NCBI GenBank assembly: GCA_026388335.1
Contig: JAPLJZ010000116.1
Span: forward strand, 1 to 32,192
Length of the DNA stretch: 32,192 bases
Source of the DNA: Deltaproteobacteria bacterium
GTDB taxonomy: Bacteria > Desulfobacterota > Syntrophia > Syntrophales > UBA8958
Direction: 5' to 3'
Positions 10,363 through 21,156 of the stretch are shown here, one piece after another; positions within the stretch are counted from its first letter, which is position 1; every line of letters begins with the position of its first letter. Under the pieces are notes generated by a model. The model did not search any database. It worked only from the letters and a program-made list of their open reading frames with translations, and had not been told where the DNA came from. Position numbers and translations under genes: made by a program.

Positions 10363-12069
10363 TTAATGCTCAAAGTGTAACGAGATACGCTGCCGCTCTT
10401 TCTGGGCGTCAAAGACAACCCGATCGGCGTACTGACGGATGAGTGAACCGGACAGGCGCATGACGGCGTTTTCGTCCGCGAGGAGCTGTTCCGGCGACGG
10501 GCATTCCTCTGATGCAGGAAACGGCAGGCCTGAATAGAGCACCATCACATCGAGATGATATTCATCAAAACGGGCCTGGATATCAATATTTCCCTCCGCC
10601 AATTCCAACAGGATCACCGTCTCCAATAATTCACTGACCGCTGCCTGGACTCGCTGAATCACTTGGCGGCGGGCGCCCCAGGCACCGCCCCTGCTCTCAA
10701 AAAAGCGTACGGCCTCGGAGATACTTGTGAGTTGAGGTTCGATGCGCAAAGCCGCGTTCTGCGCCGTTCCAATACGGAACAGTAGATTCAGCACGATGGC
10801 GCATAGAGAAGCAACGGCAAAGGGCGAACCGACGATGCTGTATAGCCAGGGCGGAAGTTTCTGGATGAGTTCCGTTAACTGGATGGCAGCCAGGCCGACG
10901 ATTATGGAACCACCGACCATAAAGATGCGTCGGGTGTCCAGCATTCTGGAGACGATCAGTTCCATTCCCGAGGTGATGAGAAAGGCGGCGGCATAGACCA
11001 GGACGGCCCCGATTACCGGCGCCGGCATGCGGGAGAGCAGTTTTGCGATGGGGGGAACAAATGCCGTTGCCAAAAGAACAATGGCCGTCAATAGTCCGAT
11101 GCGACGGGCGGTGGCGCCCGTCGCTGATGAAAGGGCAATATGAGCGGAAGAAACCCCGGTTCCAAGAGTTCCCAAAGCACCGGCCATGGCAGCGCTGACG
11201 CCGTCTGCGAGGACGCCGCGACTGACCTTGGCCATGTCTGGGCGAACCCATTCCGACTGATTGATCTTCTGGCACGTAATGATACAGGCGACAGTATCCA
11301 ACGAAGAAACCAACGCCGTCATCAAAAAAGGGGTCAACAATGCCCATTGAAACTTCCAGTCCGGTATCGGTATCGTCGGCAGCGCCAGAAATCCTCCCTC
11401 CATGACACCCTGCAGGCTGGCATGGTCAATCACACCTAACCACAGGGCGGCGCCGTAACCGGCTGCCAGACCGATCAACACCGAATACAGGCGAATTTTA
11501 CCCCGGGGCCAGATGCTCAGGGCAACCATAAGGGCCAAAGTAATTAAAGCTACGGCGATAGCATGAGGATCGACGGAATTGCCGCCATGAAGGCCCAGAA
11601 AACGCGTAATCGCCGGCCTGACCATGGATATTCCGAGCATTACGACCGCCACGCCGCAAACCTCGGCCGGAAAGAGATGGCGAAAATGCTTCAGGAACCG
11701 GGAGAAAACGATGCTGAATATCCCGGCAATGACGGTCATCCCGAACGTGAGGCCCAGGCCGCCAATTTTGGCTGCCTGAATGGATACGGGCAGATAGATG
11801 GGAGTGGTGAGGTTGACGGCCAAATAACCGCTGCCCATGCCTTTCCGACCCAGGCATTGCAGGAACGTGCCCACAGCCATGGCCAGGATGGATGCCGTCA
11901 CAACCCCTTCGGCATCGATCTGCGTTCCCCCAGATTCGGAGACTAACATCAGGGGATAAACGATAAAGACAAGGGCAAGGATGGCATGCTGAACCGCCAA
12001 CAATAATGTTGTACGGAAGGGCGGTATATCGTCAACCCCATAGATGATGTTAGCGGGTTTTTGTTCCAT
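10363..12069 (-). CDS. NCS2 (xanthine/uracil-type) permease with C-terminal degenerate anti-sigma-kinase-like domain
   Basis: A 568-residue fusion. Residues 15-435 are a nucleobase-cation symporter-2 permease: about 14 membrane segments, the family QH motif in segment 1 (AVQHAILAL), the conserved acidic region SSLDTVACI near 255-263, and the motif region GTGVSSAHIALSSATGATARRIG near 303-325. Residues 465-568 are soluble and by eye resemble RsbW/SpoIIAB-type HATPase domains (VQAAVSELLET, then LDVMVLYSGLPFP, then GSLIRQYADRVVFDA and ISLHFEH). The Mg-binding Asn of the N-box is Thr484 and the DxGxG Asp is Tyr512, so ATP binding is doubtful. It begins eight bases after a STAS protein gene. NCS2 members import purines or pyrimidines with H+ or Na+; with 5-oxoprolinase genes upstream another cyclic amide is possible. 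Confidence 0.85.
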   Translation of the reverse strand: MEQKPANIIYGVDDIPPFRTTLLLAVQHAILALVFIVYPLMLVSESGGTQIDAEGVVTASILAMAVGTFLQCLGRKGMGSGYLAVNLTTPIYLPVSIQAAKIGGLGLTFGMTVIAGIFSIVFSRFLKHFRHLFPAEVCGVAVVMLGISMVRPAITRFLGLHGGNSVDPHAIAVALITLALMVALSIWPRGKIRLYSVLIGLAAGYGAALWLGVIDHASLQGVMEGGFLALPTIPIPDWKFQWALLTPFLMTALVSSLDTVACIITCQKINQSEWVRPDMAKVSRGVLADGVSAAMAGALGTLGTGVSSAHIALSSATGATARRIGLLTAIVLLATAFVPPIAKLLSRMPAPVIGAVLVYAAAFLITSGMELIVSRMLDTRRIFMVGGSIIVGLAAIQLTELIQKLPPWLYSIVGSPFAVASLCAIVLNLLFRIGTAQNAALRIEPQLTSISEAVRFFESRGGAWGARRQVIQRVQAAVSELLETVILLELAEGNIDIQARFDEYHLDVMVLYSGLPFPASEECPSPEQLLADENAVMRLSGSLIRQYADRVVFDAQKERQRISLHFEH

Positions 12070-12077
12070 GCTTATTT

Positions 12078-12455
12078 CTATCGCAAAGAATCCAAGACCT
12101 TTTTCTGCATGGCGTCAAAATAATCGTCGGCTTCCTTAATGCTGGCAAAGAGTGTCATCCCGTGCAGCAGATTGGCAATCTTAAACACCTTTTCAATTTG
12201 CGGCTGCATATTGATCGTATGGACGCCGCCGCCGTTACCCTCAATAAATTTTCTCGTTTTAATGACGATACGCAATCCCATGCTACTTATGTAATCCAGA
12301 TTGGTCATGTCAAACATTATGTCCTTCGTTTCGGGAATCAGAAGCGAGTTAATTTTTTCATCACAGTCTGCATATGTTGTCCCGTCCAGGCGACCGATAA
12401 GCTTGACAACATAGAAACCGGACATCTTGTTTTCAATTTTCATGATCAGAGACAT
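12078..12455 (-). CDS. STAS-domain protein (anti-sigma-factor antagonist, SpoIIAA/RsbV-like)
   Basis: A 125-residue single-domain protein starting MSLIMKIENK at 12455, with AGGAGG just upstream; the open frame extends to 12536 but that part overlaps acyP. The STAS fold is clear: VVKLIGRLDGTTYADCDEKI, then DIMFDMTNLDYISSMGLRIVI. The Ser pair 57-58 is in the position of the serine that RsbW/SpoIIAB kinases phosphorylate, so it is probably phosphorylatable. Family members bind anti-sigma kinases in partner-switching circuits. No sigma factor or intact anti-sigma kinase is nearby; the next gene, eight bases downstream, is a permease whose C-terminal domain resembles such a kinase. I infer that the two proteins interact. 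Confidence 0.9.
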   Translation of the reverse strand: MSLIMKIENKMSGFYVVKLIGRLDGTTYADCDEKINSLLIPETKDIMFDMTNLDYISSMGLRIVIKTRKFIEGNGGGVHTINMQPQIEKVFKIANLLHGMTLFASIKEADDYFDAMQKKVLDSLR

Positions 12456-12471: not shown

Positions 12472-12750
12472 TTATTTGTTATACAGGATGGTGAATTCCA
12501 TGAATTCTCCCATATAATCTTCCTCACTTGAATCAACCCCGGTCACCCGGGCCAGCGGGGGGCCATGTTCACACCAGCGGTGCATGATTTCCACTTGACC
12601 GTCTTCACCCTCAAAAACCGCTTCTACCCGTCCGTCCCGAAGGTTTTTCACCCAGCCCGTCAAATTAAGTGTTATTGCCGCCTCCCGGGTGGAGGCGCGA
12701 AAAACGACTCCCTGGACGCAACCGGAAATGATGATATGGATACGCTTCAT
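12472..12750 (-). CDS. acyP: Acylphosphatase
   Basis: A 92-residue cytoplasmic enzyme hydrolysing acyl phosphates such as carbamoyl phosphate or 1,3-bisphosphoglycerate. The signature GCVQGVVFR supplies the phosphate-binding loop and the catalytic Arg18; the second signature GWVKNLRDGRVEAVFEG supplies catalytic Asn36. Length is normal for the family. It starts 66 bases after pxpC with CGGAG upstream, and its stop is 16 bases before the STAS gene start. Next to the ATP-dependent 5-oxoprolinase, whose reaction passes through a phosphorylated intermediate, a link through acyl-phosphate chemistry is possible but unproven. Confidence 0.95.
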   Translation of the reverse strand: MKRIHIIISGCVQGVVFRASTREAAITLNLTGWVKNLRDGRVEAVFEGEDGQVEIMHRWCEHGPPLARVTGVDSSEEDYMGEFMEFTILYNK

Positions 12751-12816: not shown

Positions 12817-13800
12817 TTATTCCTGTATCGGACCGGGGGGTGGGGTGGAACCGGTAAGGGATTGCAACTGAGTGATTCGTTTTTGCTTGTCCCTCCAGAG
12901 TCGCTCTCCCTCTTCCACGATGATCCTTTCGAAACAAACCAGATCGTTGGCCTTCAGGTGGGCGAGGCGGTCCTGATCCGCCCGGGCAATCACGGCTACC
13001 CGGGCATAGCCGCCGATCGTTCTTTCATTAAGCATGATGATCGGCAATCCGTCGCCGGGGATCTGGATCGTGCCGGGGACGATACCCTCGGATACAATGC
13101 TTTTTGGGGCTTCCGGCTTGAAGACCAGAGGCGTACCATCAAGGCGGATTCCTGTCCGGTTGAGATTTGTCGAGACGGTAAAGAGCTCATGGTATCCCTT
13201 TTCCCAGAAATGGCGGCATGAGTCAGCGGTAAAAGAGTCGGCTTCGGGGCCTTCCATGACCCGGAGTATGTGGGGGGAATTCATGGACGGGATCAGGTTC
13301 AATGGGATGAGGTTTGTTTCTATTTCCCTGGATTCCTCCAGGTGGAGGATGTCGCCGCTTTTAAGCGGAGTGCCGTTTAAACCGCCGAAACGGCATTCCA
13401 GATTGGTCGTGTAACTGCCCATGACCGCCTCCGCTTTTACCTTTCCCGCAAATCCTATGTAGTAGCGAAAGCCTTCCGTAACTTCCTTGACCAGCAGGAG
13501 ACTGCCCTTTTTTGCACGGAAGGATGTCCAGGGTCGCAGGGGGGCATCGTCGAGGAAGGCCATGACCCGGGCCCCGGTGATGGCGCAGATTACGTCGGCG
13601 TCAAATTGCAGGGCAAATTTCGGACCTATAACTTCCAGGAGTGGTGCGTTTGCACAATCCAGGAGGCAGTAGAGAGCCTGACAGGCGTAACGGTCCAGGG
13701 CCGATGACGAGGGCACGCCGACGGCGCCAAAACCAGTACGCCCCAGATCGACGATCAGGGAGAAGATGGCGGGATTGCGAACGGTAATGGCAGGAGTCAT
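12817..13800 (-). CDS. pxpC: 5-oxoprolinase subunit PxpC (biotin-dependent carboxyltransferase-like)
   Basis: A 327-residue protein of the allophanate hydrolase subunit 2 / KipA family. The N-terminus carries the signature FSLIVDLGRTGFGAVGVPSS followed by ALDRYACQ, and the C-terminal half contains IQIPGDGLPIIMLNERTIGGYARVAVIARADQDRLA. The frame is open upstream to 14088, but family similarity begins at MTPAIT, so I use the ATG at 13800, four bases after the pxpB stop. With PxpA and PxpB it makes the ATP-dependent enzyme that opens 5-oxoproline (pyroglutamate) to glutamate. The C-terminal tail ends in a proline-rich stretch (GSTPPPGPIQE) of no known role. Confidence 0.93.
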   Translation of the reverse strand: MTPAITVRNPAIFSLIVDLGRTGFGAVGVPSSSALDRYACQALYCLLDCANAPLLEVIGPKFALQFDADVICAITGARVMAFLDDAPLRPWTSFRAKKGSLLLVKEVTEGFRYYIGFAGKVKAEAVMGSYTTNLECRFGGLNGTPLKSGDILHLEESREIETNLIPLNLIPSMNSPHILRVMEGPEADSFTADSCRHFWEKGYHELFTVSTNLNRTGIRLDGTPLVFKPEAPKSIVSEGIVPGTIQIPGDGLPIIMLNERTIGGYARVAVIARADQDRLAHLKANDLVCFERIIVEEGERLWRDKQKRITQLQSLTGSTPPPGPIQE

Positions 13801-13804
13801 CTCT

Positions 13805-14445
13805 TCATTGCACCTCGATAAACCGGACTTTGTCGCCGATCTGCATGAGGCTGTAGGGTGGCCGCGCCGGATCGAAAAGCCGAATATCCGTACGGCCGAT
13901 AATCTGCCAGCCCGCCGGTGATTCAAAGGGATAAATCCCCGTCTGTCGCTGGGCGATGCCCACTGAACCTGCCGGAATTCTCGTCCGGGGGGTTTCGAGC
14001 CGGGGCGCCGTAATCCGTTCGTCGAGGGTTCCCAGATAGGGAAAGCCGGGGGTGAAGCCCACGGTAAAGACGGTATAAAGCTCGGCACAGTGTCTTTCGA
14101 TTACCTCGGAGACAGATAGTTGGCAGTGTTTAGCCACGAAGGACAGATCCGGTCCGTAGTCGCCGCCATAGTGGACGGTAATTTCGTGGACCTGCGGGGG
14201 GGGCATCTCAACGGCCGACAAGTTGGCAAGGCGTTCATTCAAAAGGTCCGCCAGGGTCTCGTAAGACGTCAGATCATCTTCGTAAATCACCAGGCAGGAA
14301 CAGAAGGAAGGAATTATCTCTATAATATCAATACGATGCAGTGATATGAGGAGGAAAAAGGCCCGCCGGACCTGCTCGTGGACTTCCATGTCTATCTGGC
14401 TGCCAAAGATGATTCTGAGGGCGTTCTCGGCGTAGCGCTGGATAA

Positions 14446-14449
<4 letters not shown>
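13805..14449 (-). CDS. pxpB: 5-oxoprolinase subunit PxpB (KipI family)
   Basis: A 214-residue protein of the allophanate hydrolase subunit 1 / KipI family. The C-terminal half carries the signature VGFTPGFPYLGTLDERI, then PRTRIPAGSVGIAQRQTGIYP and SPAGWQIIGRTDIRLFD. Order and length agree with PxpB. The ATG start overlaps the pxpA stop by four bases and the stop is four bases before pxpC, as expected for a stoichiometric complex. In Bacillus the KipI homologue inhibits a sporulation kinase, but the complete pxpABC set here favours the metabolic role. Confidence 0.93.
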
Positions 14450-17569
<3,120 letters not shown>

Positions 17570-18516: not shown

Positions 18517-21156
18517 TCAAATTACTTCCCGAATTATCCGGGACAGATCCTCCATTCGAAAAGGTTTCTGAATAAATGCCTTGATGCCCCGGGCCATGAT
18601 GTCTCTGGCCATTCCGTTCAAGCTGTAGCCGCTGGAAAGGATCACCTTGACATCGGGACGGATGGCTTTGACCAGGTCATAGGCCTCGCCGCCATTCATG
18701 CCCGGCATGATCATGTCCATGATCACCAGGTCGATGCGGTCCTGATTCTTTCCGTAAATCTCTATGGCCTCCTGGCCGGAACGGGCGATCAGTACCTGAT
18801 AACCCATTTGTTCAAGCATCCCCTGCGTCACATCGATAATGATCTTTTCATCATCCACGACCAGGATGGTTTCCTGACCTTTCAGGATATCCTGAGCCGG
18901 CATTTCCTTTATGGCAACCTTCTGGTCAGAGGCGGGCAGGTAGATATTGAAGGTTGTTCCATGCCCTTTCTCACTGTAAACATTAATGACACCGCCGTGA
19001 CCCTTGATGATGCCATAGGCGGAGGCGAGACCGAGGCCCGTTCCCCGCCCCATTTCTTTCGTGGTGAAAAAGGGGTCGAATATCCGCTGGCGGGTCTTTT
19101 CGTCCATTCCCACCCCGGTGTCGGTCACCGATAACTTGATATAAGCGCCGGGTGGAATGTCATAGGCCTGGACATAGTTGCTGTCCAGGGTAACATTATC
19201 TGTTTGTAGATAGAGATCTCCCCCTCCAGGCATGGCCTGCCAGGCGTTGACAAACAGATTCAGCAACACCTGCTCGATCTGTCCCTGATCTACATTGGCC
19301 GAGAAAAGATGTTCCCCGTATTTTTCATAGACCCGGACTTCTTTTTTCGTTCTACCAAAAACGGCGACAGATTTTTTAATCAGATCATTCAGATTCGTCG
19401 GTTTGATCTCGTAGCGGCCGCCCCGGGCAAATCCCAGCAATTGCCTCGTTAAATCGGCGCCGCTCTGGACCTGCAATTCAATTGCCCGCAGCTTTTCGTA
19501 ATGAGGATGTCCCTGATCCATGCGCAACAGCATGAGGGAGGCATACCCCTGAATGCCCATGAGGAGATTGTTGAAGTCGTGGGCAATGCCGCCGGCAAGA
19601 GTGCCGATGGCCTCCATCTTCTGGGCCTGGAGGAGTTGTCCTTCGAGGCGGCGTCTTTCTTTTTCGGCTTCTTTTTGCTGGGTGATATCCATGGTGTTAC
19701 CCAGAACCGCCGACCGCCCCCTATAGGTAATAGGGGTAACCGTTTCCAGCAGCCACTTGACCTGATTGTCCTTGGTAACGATCCGGTATTCATAGGGAGA
19801 GCTCAACTCTCCCGCGAGCATCTTTCGGGCCTTTTCCCGCACCGTCTCCCGATCCTCGGGGTGGACGAAATGGAGGATCCGCTCACCTAACAGTTCTACT
19901 TCCGTATAGCCGGAGTAGTCAGGGATGTGGGGATTGATAAAACAGAGCCTGCCGCCCTGCACGATGTAAACCCCGGCCTGGGAGCTGTCGGCCATTGTCC
20001 GATATTGGTCTTCCACCTGTTTTCTGTCTGTGACGTCCCGGACGATCCCCATGAAACCACGGCGGTGTCCCTCTTCATCCCGGAGCAGGGAGGCGGAAAA
20101 TTCAACCGCCCTCCTAACCCCATCCTTGTTGATGATCTCCCATTCAAATCTTTTCATGGGGATTCCCGTTTTGTACATCTGATTGTAGGCGCGATAAACT
20201 CGGTCGGCGGTATTTTCGTCGGCGGCATAACGCCGGAAGTTCGTGCCCAGGAGTTCTTCTTTGCTGTAGCCGAAGATCTTGCGGAAGGATTCGTTGAAAA
20301 AAGTAAAATTCCCATTGATATCCACTTCCTGATAACCGTCTTCGATCTCCTCTAGAATGGTCCGGTATCTCTCCTCGCTTTGCCGCAGGGTCGACTCCAC
20401 CCGCCTGCTCGTCGTGATGTCATGGAAGAGAGAAAGGACAACCTGCCCCCCTTCGTAGCTGATGACTTCCGCAGAGCAGAGGATATCCCTGATGTCTCCC
20501 GCCTTGGTGCGCAGGTGAATCAGTTCATCCCGACAACGGCCTGCTACCAGGAAGTTGTCGATCAGGGCGGTTCTTTCTTCCGAATAGGGCCATATGGTGA
20601 GATCTTCGGCTGTCCTGCCGATCATTTCTTCCCGCGCATAACCCATCATGCGGCACCACTGGTCGTTTACGGCGAGGTAACGGCCGTCGGCAATGGTGCT
20701 GATAATGGCCGGTGCCGGGCCGGCGTGGAAGGTCTTGGAAAAACGATCCTCGCTTTTTTTCAGCGCATCGTCCATTTCCATGCGCTCGGTCATATCTCGC
20801 AGGACGCCGCAGGTGGCCGTTTGGCCTTCGTAGGAGATGTAGGATACCGACGCCTCCAGATGGAGCTTGCGTTTGTCCCTGGTCAGGGCGGTAAACGTGT
20901 ATTTGGCATCCAGCAGTTCTTTTTTCTTGATCTTACCCTGTCGGTCCCGAATCAGGGCCTGACTCTCCGGGGCCACCAGAAGCAGGAAGTCGAAATCCGA
21001 ATGATATATCTCTTCACGGGTTATCTGAAACAGCTTGACAAAGCTCTGATTGACAAAGATAAAGCGCCCATCAAGCAACAGGTAAATGGCATCGTTGGAC
21101 TGCTCGACCAGTGAGGCATAAAGGTTGGCTTTATCTGGCTCATTTCCATTGTTCAT
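18517..21156 (-). CDS. Soluble hybrid sensor histidine kinase with four PAS domains and C-terminal receiver
   Basis: An 879-residue cytoplasmic signalling protein with no membrane segment. PAS domains occupy about 11-125, 135-252, 260-380 and 388-497; the usual DITxRK-type linkers end each one. The HisKA motif [11 protein letters not shown] carries the phospho-accepting His526. The ATPase domain has N-box Asn637, DTGVGM (679-684) and GTGLGL (705-710). The receiver (about 763-879) has acidic pair Asp768/769, phospho-acceptor Asp814, a Ser at 841-842 and Lys864. All active residues are present, so kinase and receiver should both work. No output regulator is encoded beside it; signal and target are unknown. 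It follows mogA by 69 bases on the same strand and may share the fusA-like operon. Confidence 0.95.

Follow-up and report, generated by a model that had tools for sequence, protein, structure and literature searches.

An NCS2-type permease with a degenerate anti-sigma-kinase domain as a candidate output of partner switching

We analyzed a 32,192-nucleotide stretch of DNA (hereafter the window) from a Deltaproteobacteria bacterium (Desulfobacterota, Syntrophales, UBA8958; assembly GCA_026388335.1, contig JAPLJZ010000116.1), in which the gene for a single-domain STAS protein lies just upstream of a gene for an NCS2-type permease whose C-terminus resembles the anti-sigma kinases RsbW and SpoIIAB (Table 1). 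Both genes had been singled out from the window sequence alone (hereafter the original prediction). So far, partner switching is known to act on sigma factors and on a small number of diguanylate cyclases, and the locus and its relatives probably represent a variant with a transporter-like protein as output.

Table 1. Coordinates of the permease locus within the window
Feature	Position	Strand	Basis or remark
Permease of NCS2 type (568 aa) ending in an RsbW-like domain	10363..12069	-	Open reading frame list, Pfam, predicted structure
Membrane part, residues 1-437, UraA/SLC23 fold (predicted)	10759..12069	-	AlphaFold2 full chain and Foldseek
C-terminal domain, residues 438-568, predicted HATPase_c_2 RsbW/SpoIIAB fold, nucleotide-site Asp and Asn missing	10366..10758	-	
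Glu480 codon, equivalent of RsbW Glu49	10630..10632	-	Domain alignment
Thr484 codon, kinase Asn position	10618..10620	-	Domain alignment
Tyr512 codon, DxGxG Asp position	10534..10536	-	Domain alignment
8 bases separating the STAS stop codon from the permease ATG	12070..12077	-	
Single-domain STAS protein, RsbV/SpoIIAA-like, 125 aa	12078..12455	-	Pfam, NCBIfam and PDB matches; relatives 82% and 81% identical
Ser58 codon, phospho-serine position, motif YISSMG	12282..12284	-	Alignment to SpoIIAA
Acylphosphatase gene, just upstream of the STAS gene	12472..12750	-	Immediately precedes the permease in the 93% relative

Results

A predicted anti-sigma-kinase fold at the permease C-terminus

The AlphaFold2 model of residues 438-568, built from an alignment of 71 permease C-terminal domains with no separate kinase included, reached a predicted local distance difference test score (pLDDT) of 93.9. 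In a Foldseek search the 19 best chains were all anti-sigma kinases (SpoIIAB, RsbW and UsfX; E from 2.4e-6 to 1.6e-4), and VIA-align gave Z scores of 16.0 to 14.2 for its ten best entries, every one an anti-sigma kinase, followed by LvrC (12.8), SiaB (12.0) and, from the thirteenth entry, where histidine kinases start, values of 9.5 or less. When the profile of the 71 domains was compared with the PDB, Bacillus subtilis RsbW (6m36) was the best match over the whole domain (E 8e-4), a match not decisive on its own, as the next chain was unrelated at E 0.0014. An iterative profile seeded with a permease-linked kinase also recruited the permease domains. The Pfam match of the window protein to HATPase_c_2 is weak and under the curated cut-off (E 0.079 at full length, 0.0036 with residues 438-568 on their own), and a scan of the last 105 residues only (10363-10680), which are shorter than the true domain, gave no match. 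We regard the weak match as above chance because HATPase_c_2 is found at E ≤ 1 in 36 of the 71 family domains (best 1.5e-6), two family permeases from a six-frame search reach the Pfam cut-off (G262:C21, and G025, at the cut-off and with neighbours), and the predicted fold is clear. By these models, residues 438-568 clearly fold as an RsbW/SpoIIAB anti-sigma kinase and have the HATPase_c_2 fold typical of these kinases. The original prediction had read the permease C-terminus as a degenerate version of this fold and had suggested structure prediction as a check; the AlphaFold2 model, Foldseek and the top Z score bear it out, with the domain starting near residue 438 rather than at about 465 as first proposed.

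Kinase activity requires the Asn of the nucleotide site and the Asp of the DxGxG motif. In the fused domain these positions correspond to Thr484 and Tyr512, an assignment first made by eye and upheld by the alignment, in which Asn occurs at the former in 0/71 domains and Asp at the latter in 0/71, with Tyr in 66. The domain, lacking both residues, is not classed as a kinase. Its most conserved residue is Glu480 (70/71 domains), which corresponds to B. subtilis RsbW Glu49; this residue contacts RsbV Ser56, the residue phosphorylated by RsbW, as reported in passages of PMC7340262. Judged by these residues, the domain reads as a pseudo-anti-sigma-kinase in which the usual ATP-site residues are lost and the STAS-facing Glu480 is retained. 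Glu480 is the sole sign in the sequence, an indirect one, that the domain may bind STAS. Within the genus, the ratio of nonsynonymous to synonymous substitution rates (dN/dS) is 0.13-0.16 for this domain, indicating purifying selection, and 0.08-0.10 for the membrane part; decay of the C-terminal domain was rejected on the former value.

A STAS protein that retains the phospho-serine position

The neighbouring protein matches Pfam STAS (E 2.7e-14), exceeds the cut-off of TIGR00377, an anti-anti-sigma model, and finds SpoIIAA chains as its best PDB matches. In the alignment to the PDB sequence its Ser58 falls on the phospho-serine Ser58 of SpoIIAA, and with a single STAS domain and a phosphorylatable Ser it resembles RsbV and SpoIIAA. 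The SpoIIAA/RsbV-like assignment and the eight-base spacing thus stand as originally described, as does the retention of the phospho-serine, now placed at Ser58 and not at Ser57. The serine is kept in all 21 permease-linked STAS sequences found across the family, and dN/dS for the STAS is 0.17-0.31. The 125-residue length assumes the ATG at 12455. A TTG at 12536 would also allow a longer protein, but L198, the relative with 82% identity, begins at the same Met.

Switch genes recur beside fused permeases

DNA flanking NCS2 genes, both those that carry the C-terminal domain and those that lack it, was surveyed for STAS, SpoIIE and RsbW, each sought with its own profile. The survey was centred on the phylum of the window (Desulfobacterota), its scan of genome contigs reaches close relatives only, and thresholds varied (E 1e-60 in one survey, 1e-130 in others). 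The fused set comprised 75 loci (not genomes) whose domain scores at least 60 against a profile built for this analysis, including fragments cut by contig ends (L046, L064, L077, L127 and L138). Four weaker loci (L068, L069, L073 and L076) were placed in neither the fused nor the unfused set, and two were excluded: L140, where a permease cut by the contig end is accompanied by SpoIIE and STAS, and L044, also cut by a contig end. Contigs L042, L043, L046 and L047 come from metagenome-assembled genomes (MAGs), and their taxon names are used as labelled. A search of the class of G025 returned nothing but the fusion of G025 itself at E ≤ 1e-130.

Within the fetched flanks, STAS was found at 19/75 fused loci, SpoIIE at 17/75 and either at 20/75, compared with 0/26 unfused NCS2 loci (Fisher p 0.0015); among loci flanked by 3 kb or more on each side, the contrast was 12/39 against 0/21 (p 0.005), although both p values overstate the evidence since the loci are related to one another. 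One locus counted as unfused (L075) has a weak kinase-profile match, and without it the contrast becomes 20/75 against 0/25. A separately encoded RsbW-like kinase gene or domain was present near 9/75 fused loci, and STAS, SpoIIE and kinase together at 7/75. The nucleotide-site Asn and Asp are retained in all eight linked kinases inspected by eye (L156 was not among them), and representatives of each partner type (STAS, SpoIIE and kinase) were confirmed by Pfam. A 5TMR-LYT or Cache sensor part was found in 12 of 14 linked SpoIIE proteins scanned; in the other two, the Cache part is on a neighbouring open reading frame (ORF; L052) or the gene is cut by a contig end (L155).

At least six gene orders, distributed over several subclades, occur among the linked fused loci. 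SpoIIE and STAS precede the permease in L049 and L116-L120, and the order is permease, STAS, SpoIIE in L047 (labelled as a Methanospirillaceae MAG) and permease, SpoIIE, STAS in L128 and, with the Cache ORF in between, L052. STAS and kinase precede the permease in L043 and L046, and the permease is followed by a binding protein, SpoIIE, STAS and kinase in L048. In L130 and L131, and with a larger gap in L132, SpoIIE precedes the permease while kinase and STAS are on the other strand; in L154-L156 a SpoIIE fused to the kinase is followed by the permease and then STAS. Linkage with such rearranged orders would not be expected from simple inheritance of one fixed cluster. On a tree of the 71 fusions, the linkage label changes 8 times, with at least 5 changes forced by well-supported branches.

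STAS was also the commonest neighbour when adjacent genes were clustered without preselected function (13/62 core loci), followed by an ABC-type ATPase (11/62). At the 19 linked loci 137 ORFs were listed, and among the 25 commonest Pfam families of the 112 neighbour proteins scanned there were no sigma-factor families, rarer families not being shown.

Some of the surveyed loci have peculiarities of their own. The Cache and SpoIIE parts of L052 (2941-5008) are split over two overlapping ORFs, as is the permease frame of L046 (4968-6603, labelled as a Chlorobiaceae MAG). Two STAS genes (403-741 and 1052-1408) lie downstream of a single fused permease in L156. In L060, L122 and L123, a large protein (~1400 residues where complete) that by eye resembles a 2-hydroxyacyl-CoA dehydratase activator is encoded directly upstream, on the same strand, of STAS-less fused permeases.

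The membrane part and its substrate

The permease matches Pfam Xan_ur_permease (PF00860; E 5.5e-45, residues 20-399). Its full-length AlphaFold2 model (pLDDT 85.9) includes short strands at residues 86-88 and 304-306, and Foldseek ranked UraA first (2.3e-15), with UraA, UapA and SVCT1 as best matches and SLC26 chains also listed. Sequence family and UraA fold both place the protein in NCS2/SLC23. The binding site of UraA includes E241, H245 and E290, according to excerpts of PMC11362169. The family profile aligned with UapA has Lys and Ser at the positions of the Glu in transmembrane segment 8 (TM8) and the Glu/Gln in TM10, other membrane residues being invariant across the family. The window permease has Asp258 and Ala309 there, so that in its clade the TM8 position is still acidic and the TM10 position is not. 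The combination of an acidic TM8 residue with an acidic or amide TM10 residue is thus missing, and we do not place the protein among the nucleobase transporters in the narrow sense. With these replacements in the NCS2 site, a canonical nucleobase is an unlikely substrate. No substrate can be named, because neighbour clustering found no metabolic gene common to the subclades. The adjoining 5-oxoprolinase-type cluster offers a hint, for the genus of the window only.

A proposed partner switch acting on the permease

The window genome encodes STAS-kinase gene pairs on three contigs (C230, C132 and C123) and five SpoIIE genes, so that kinase and phosphatases are available. The separately encoded real kinase of the original prediction is supported by these pairs and by the RsbW-like genes or domains near 9/75 fused loci. 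On balance we lean slightly towards the permease being the output of a partner-switching module, reached through its fused pseudo-anti-sigma-kinase. Such control is supported by the recurrence of the switch-gene context across the family and not by the window alone. The unphosphorylated STAS protein would dock on the pseudo-kinase domain and affect the UraA-type membrane part in its transport cycle; a genuine RsbW-type kinase would phosphorylate Ser58 and release the STAS protein, and a PP2C phosphatase of the SpoIIE type, equipped with a sensor domain, would reset it. The window locus, with a STAS gene only, is not in itself a module in which PP2C, STAS and kinase genes stand together; its kinase and phosphatase would have to be supplied by other parts of the genome. 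In several relatives STAS, kinase and SpoIIE genes are all local. The predicted folds, the lost ATP-site residues, the retained Glu and STAS serine and the recurrent linkage are results of the analysis, whereas we infer binding and gating by STAS, as the original prediction did, together with a dependence on phosphorylation, the sign of the effect and transport at all by the membrane part. More broadly, we consider the chances about even that partner-switch-gated secondary transporters are widespread, with a dead anti-sigma kinase on an NCS2-fold permease serving as a phospho-controlled STAS receptor and a sensor phosphatase and kinase setting transport, not transcription, in several bacterial lineages and perhaps in methanogenic archaea.

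Evidence at odds with the proposal and alternative explanations

A number of results weigh against control of the permease by a STAS partner, the first of them in the domain itself. RsbV-contacting positions of RsbW, taken from passages of PMC7340262, are poorly preserved in the fused domains: Arg23, Asp42 and Lys44 are not kept, with Arg or Lys in 56/71 at the Asp42 position (domain residue 473) and variable residues at the other two, and the Ser48 position is Asn in 37/71 and the Tyr118 position Phe or Tyr in only 39/71. Moreover, at 55/75 fused loci neither STAS nor SpoIIE is present within the flanks that were fetched, which are short in some cases. The linkage label is also clustered on the tree (8 changes compared with 17.0 in shuffles), and part of these changes may represent losses, so that the loci are not independent. 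Unconserved contact positions and the many fused loci with no STAS nearby would fit a domain that is only a dimerization or stability module, derived from a kinase and no longer binding STAS, with the linkage reflecting co-regulation or the ancestry of the fusion; RsbW itself dimerizes via helix 1 and strand 1, as described in the same passages (PMC7340262). This purely structural role, the dull alternative, we consider improbable, because no residue of the domain is better conserved than Glu480 and because linkage reappears, with the genes rearranged, in several subclades. We dropped the idea that charges were exchanged between residue 473 of the domain and the STAS residue corresponding to RsbV Arg87, placed by the RsbV residue order as we assume it: acidic residues there also occur in STAS proteins away from permeases, so that the exchange does not discriminate.

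Further points come from the genus. In the two closest complete permease homologues (G010, 93%, and G007, 91% identical) the acylphosphatase gene is directly before the permease with no STAS between, which counts against a fixed local STAS-permease pair. G010 carries its 81%-identical STAS relative away from this locus, on a different contig, and the four STAS-family genes of G007 include no close relative of the window STAS. These observations would suit a bystander role in the window genome, with a free-standing STAS protein that serves an unlinked partner and a gene placed here by chance, an explanation that we likewise find improbable: G004 has oxoprolinase-type genes, acylphosphatase and STAS (82% identical) in the same order up to a contig end, so that the arrangement is not unique to one assembly, and distant homologues have STAS directly up- or downstream of the permease. 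A separate contig of G004 ends inside the permease. The acylphosphatase-STAS order repeated there also led us to reject an assembly artefact for the placement of the STAS gene. The conserved STAS adjacency suggested originally therefore holds in part, for the family (20/75 fused against 0/26 unfused loci) and not for the two closest complete homologues. Among the STAS-kinase pairs of the window genome, that on C230 is the most like permease-linked pairs. Dedication of this pair to the permease was dropped, since a C230-type kinase also occurs in the genus-mates G006, G008 and G009, where no match to the permease was found, a further point on the unfavourable side.

Finally, transport by the membrane part is uncertain because the canonical NCS2 site residues are replaced. 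The main rival to permease control reverses the flow: the NCS2 part would be a receptor (transceptor) with transport lost or reduced, whose occupancy would set how much STAS protein the membrane-bound pseudo-kinase retains and thereby feed other kinases and gene control. Replaced TM8/TM10 residues alongside other, invariant membrane residues are as expected for an altered ligand site, and STAS-kinase pairs are encoded elsewhere in the window genome. We nevertheless hold this reversal unlikely, as sensor domains resembling an input are already present on 12 of the 14 scanned linked SpoIIE proteins, the switch genes reappear as partners more often than any other functional class, and the 25 commonest Pfam families of the scanned neighbours include none of the sigma-factor type.

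Relation to known systems

The locus shares with the RsbU-RsbV-RsbW and SpoIIE-SpoIIAA-SpoIIAB systems a STAS protein with a phospho-serine position and, at linked loci, a PP2C with a sensor and a HATPase_c_2 kinase, and the fused domain has the predicted SpoIIAB/RsbW fold. In contrast to these systems, the partner fold is carried on a membrane permease and lacks the ATP-site residues, and sigma factors are not seen among the commonest neighbour families. Partner switching with a target other than a sigma factor is known from HsbA-HsbD, BgrV-BgrR and SiaC-SiaD, which drive the diguanylate cyclases HsbD, BgrR and SiaD (as described in parts of PMC8457831 and PMC5085249); their targets are enzymes, whereas our proposal concerns a permease to which a STAS-receptor fold is fused. 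A separate STAS protein works with a transporter in MlaFEDB, where MlaB is the STAS subunit of the ABC transporter and is bound to MlaF (excerpts of PMC7367683), much as we presume for the window pair. According to the same excerpts, a phosphomimetic at the serine-equivalent Thr52 weakens MlaB binding, phosphorylation of Thr52 being as yet without experimental evidence (PMC7367683). MlaB docks on an ABC ATPase and not on a kinase-like fold. SLC26/SulP transporters combine a related 7+7 membrane fold with a STAS domain (PMC6497670); there the STAS is fused to the permease, while here the fused domain is HATPase_c_2-like and presumably STAS-binding and the STAS protein is encoded by a separate gene. 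The window permease has sequence family and fold in common with the NCS2 nucleobase transporters UraA and UapA and differs from them by its replaced binding-site residues and the extra C-terminal domain.

No NCS2 permease fused to an anti-sigma kinase appeared among the matches listed, by titles and abstract beginnings, for open-licence PubMed Central, and the terms permease and HATPase are absent from the main text, as excerpted, of a review of STAS-only proteins (PMC8256260). If the proposal is correct, partner switching would extend to direct and fast control of membrane transport. A permease with a dead kinase copy would then be a mirror image of the SLC26 transporters, where the fused part is STAS. 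The family would also provide a concrete case of a pseudo-anti-sigma-kinase, and the old question of how STAS domains affect transporters would become testable with two small soluble proteins.

Other features of the window and its relatives

Upstream of the STAS gene, along with the acylphosphatase gene, the window contains 5-oxoprolinase-type genes (LamB_YcsF, CT_C_D and CT_A_B; 12817-15228), and these genes and the acylphosphatase are mostly kept beside the permease in G007 and G010. Positions 18517-21156 encode a multi-PAS hybrid histidine kinase with a receiver domain.

A second NCS2 permease of the window genome (L002; G000:C175:3286-4920), 26% identical overall, has its own degenerate RsbW-like C-terminal domain but by eye keeps a Glu in TM10. 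On the tree it falls in a distinct clade of 8 fusions, none with STAS or SpoIIE in the flanks that were fetched. In G010 (C29; L190, 3731-5375), a SpoIIE with what by eye looks like a receiver-like domain is followed by a STAS gene with no adjacent kinase; the surrounding genes resemble, by eye, those of polysaccharide synthesis, and the pair may be a separate switch.

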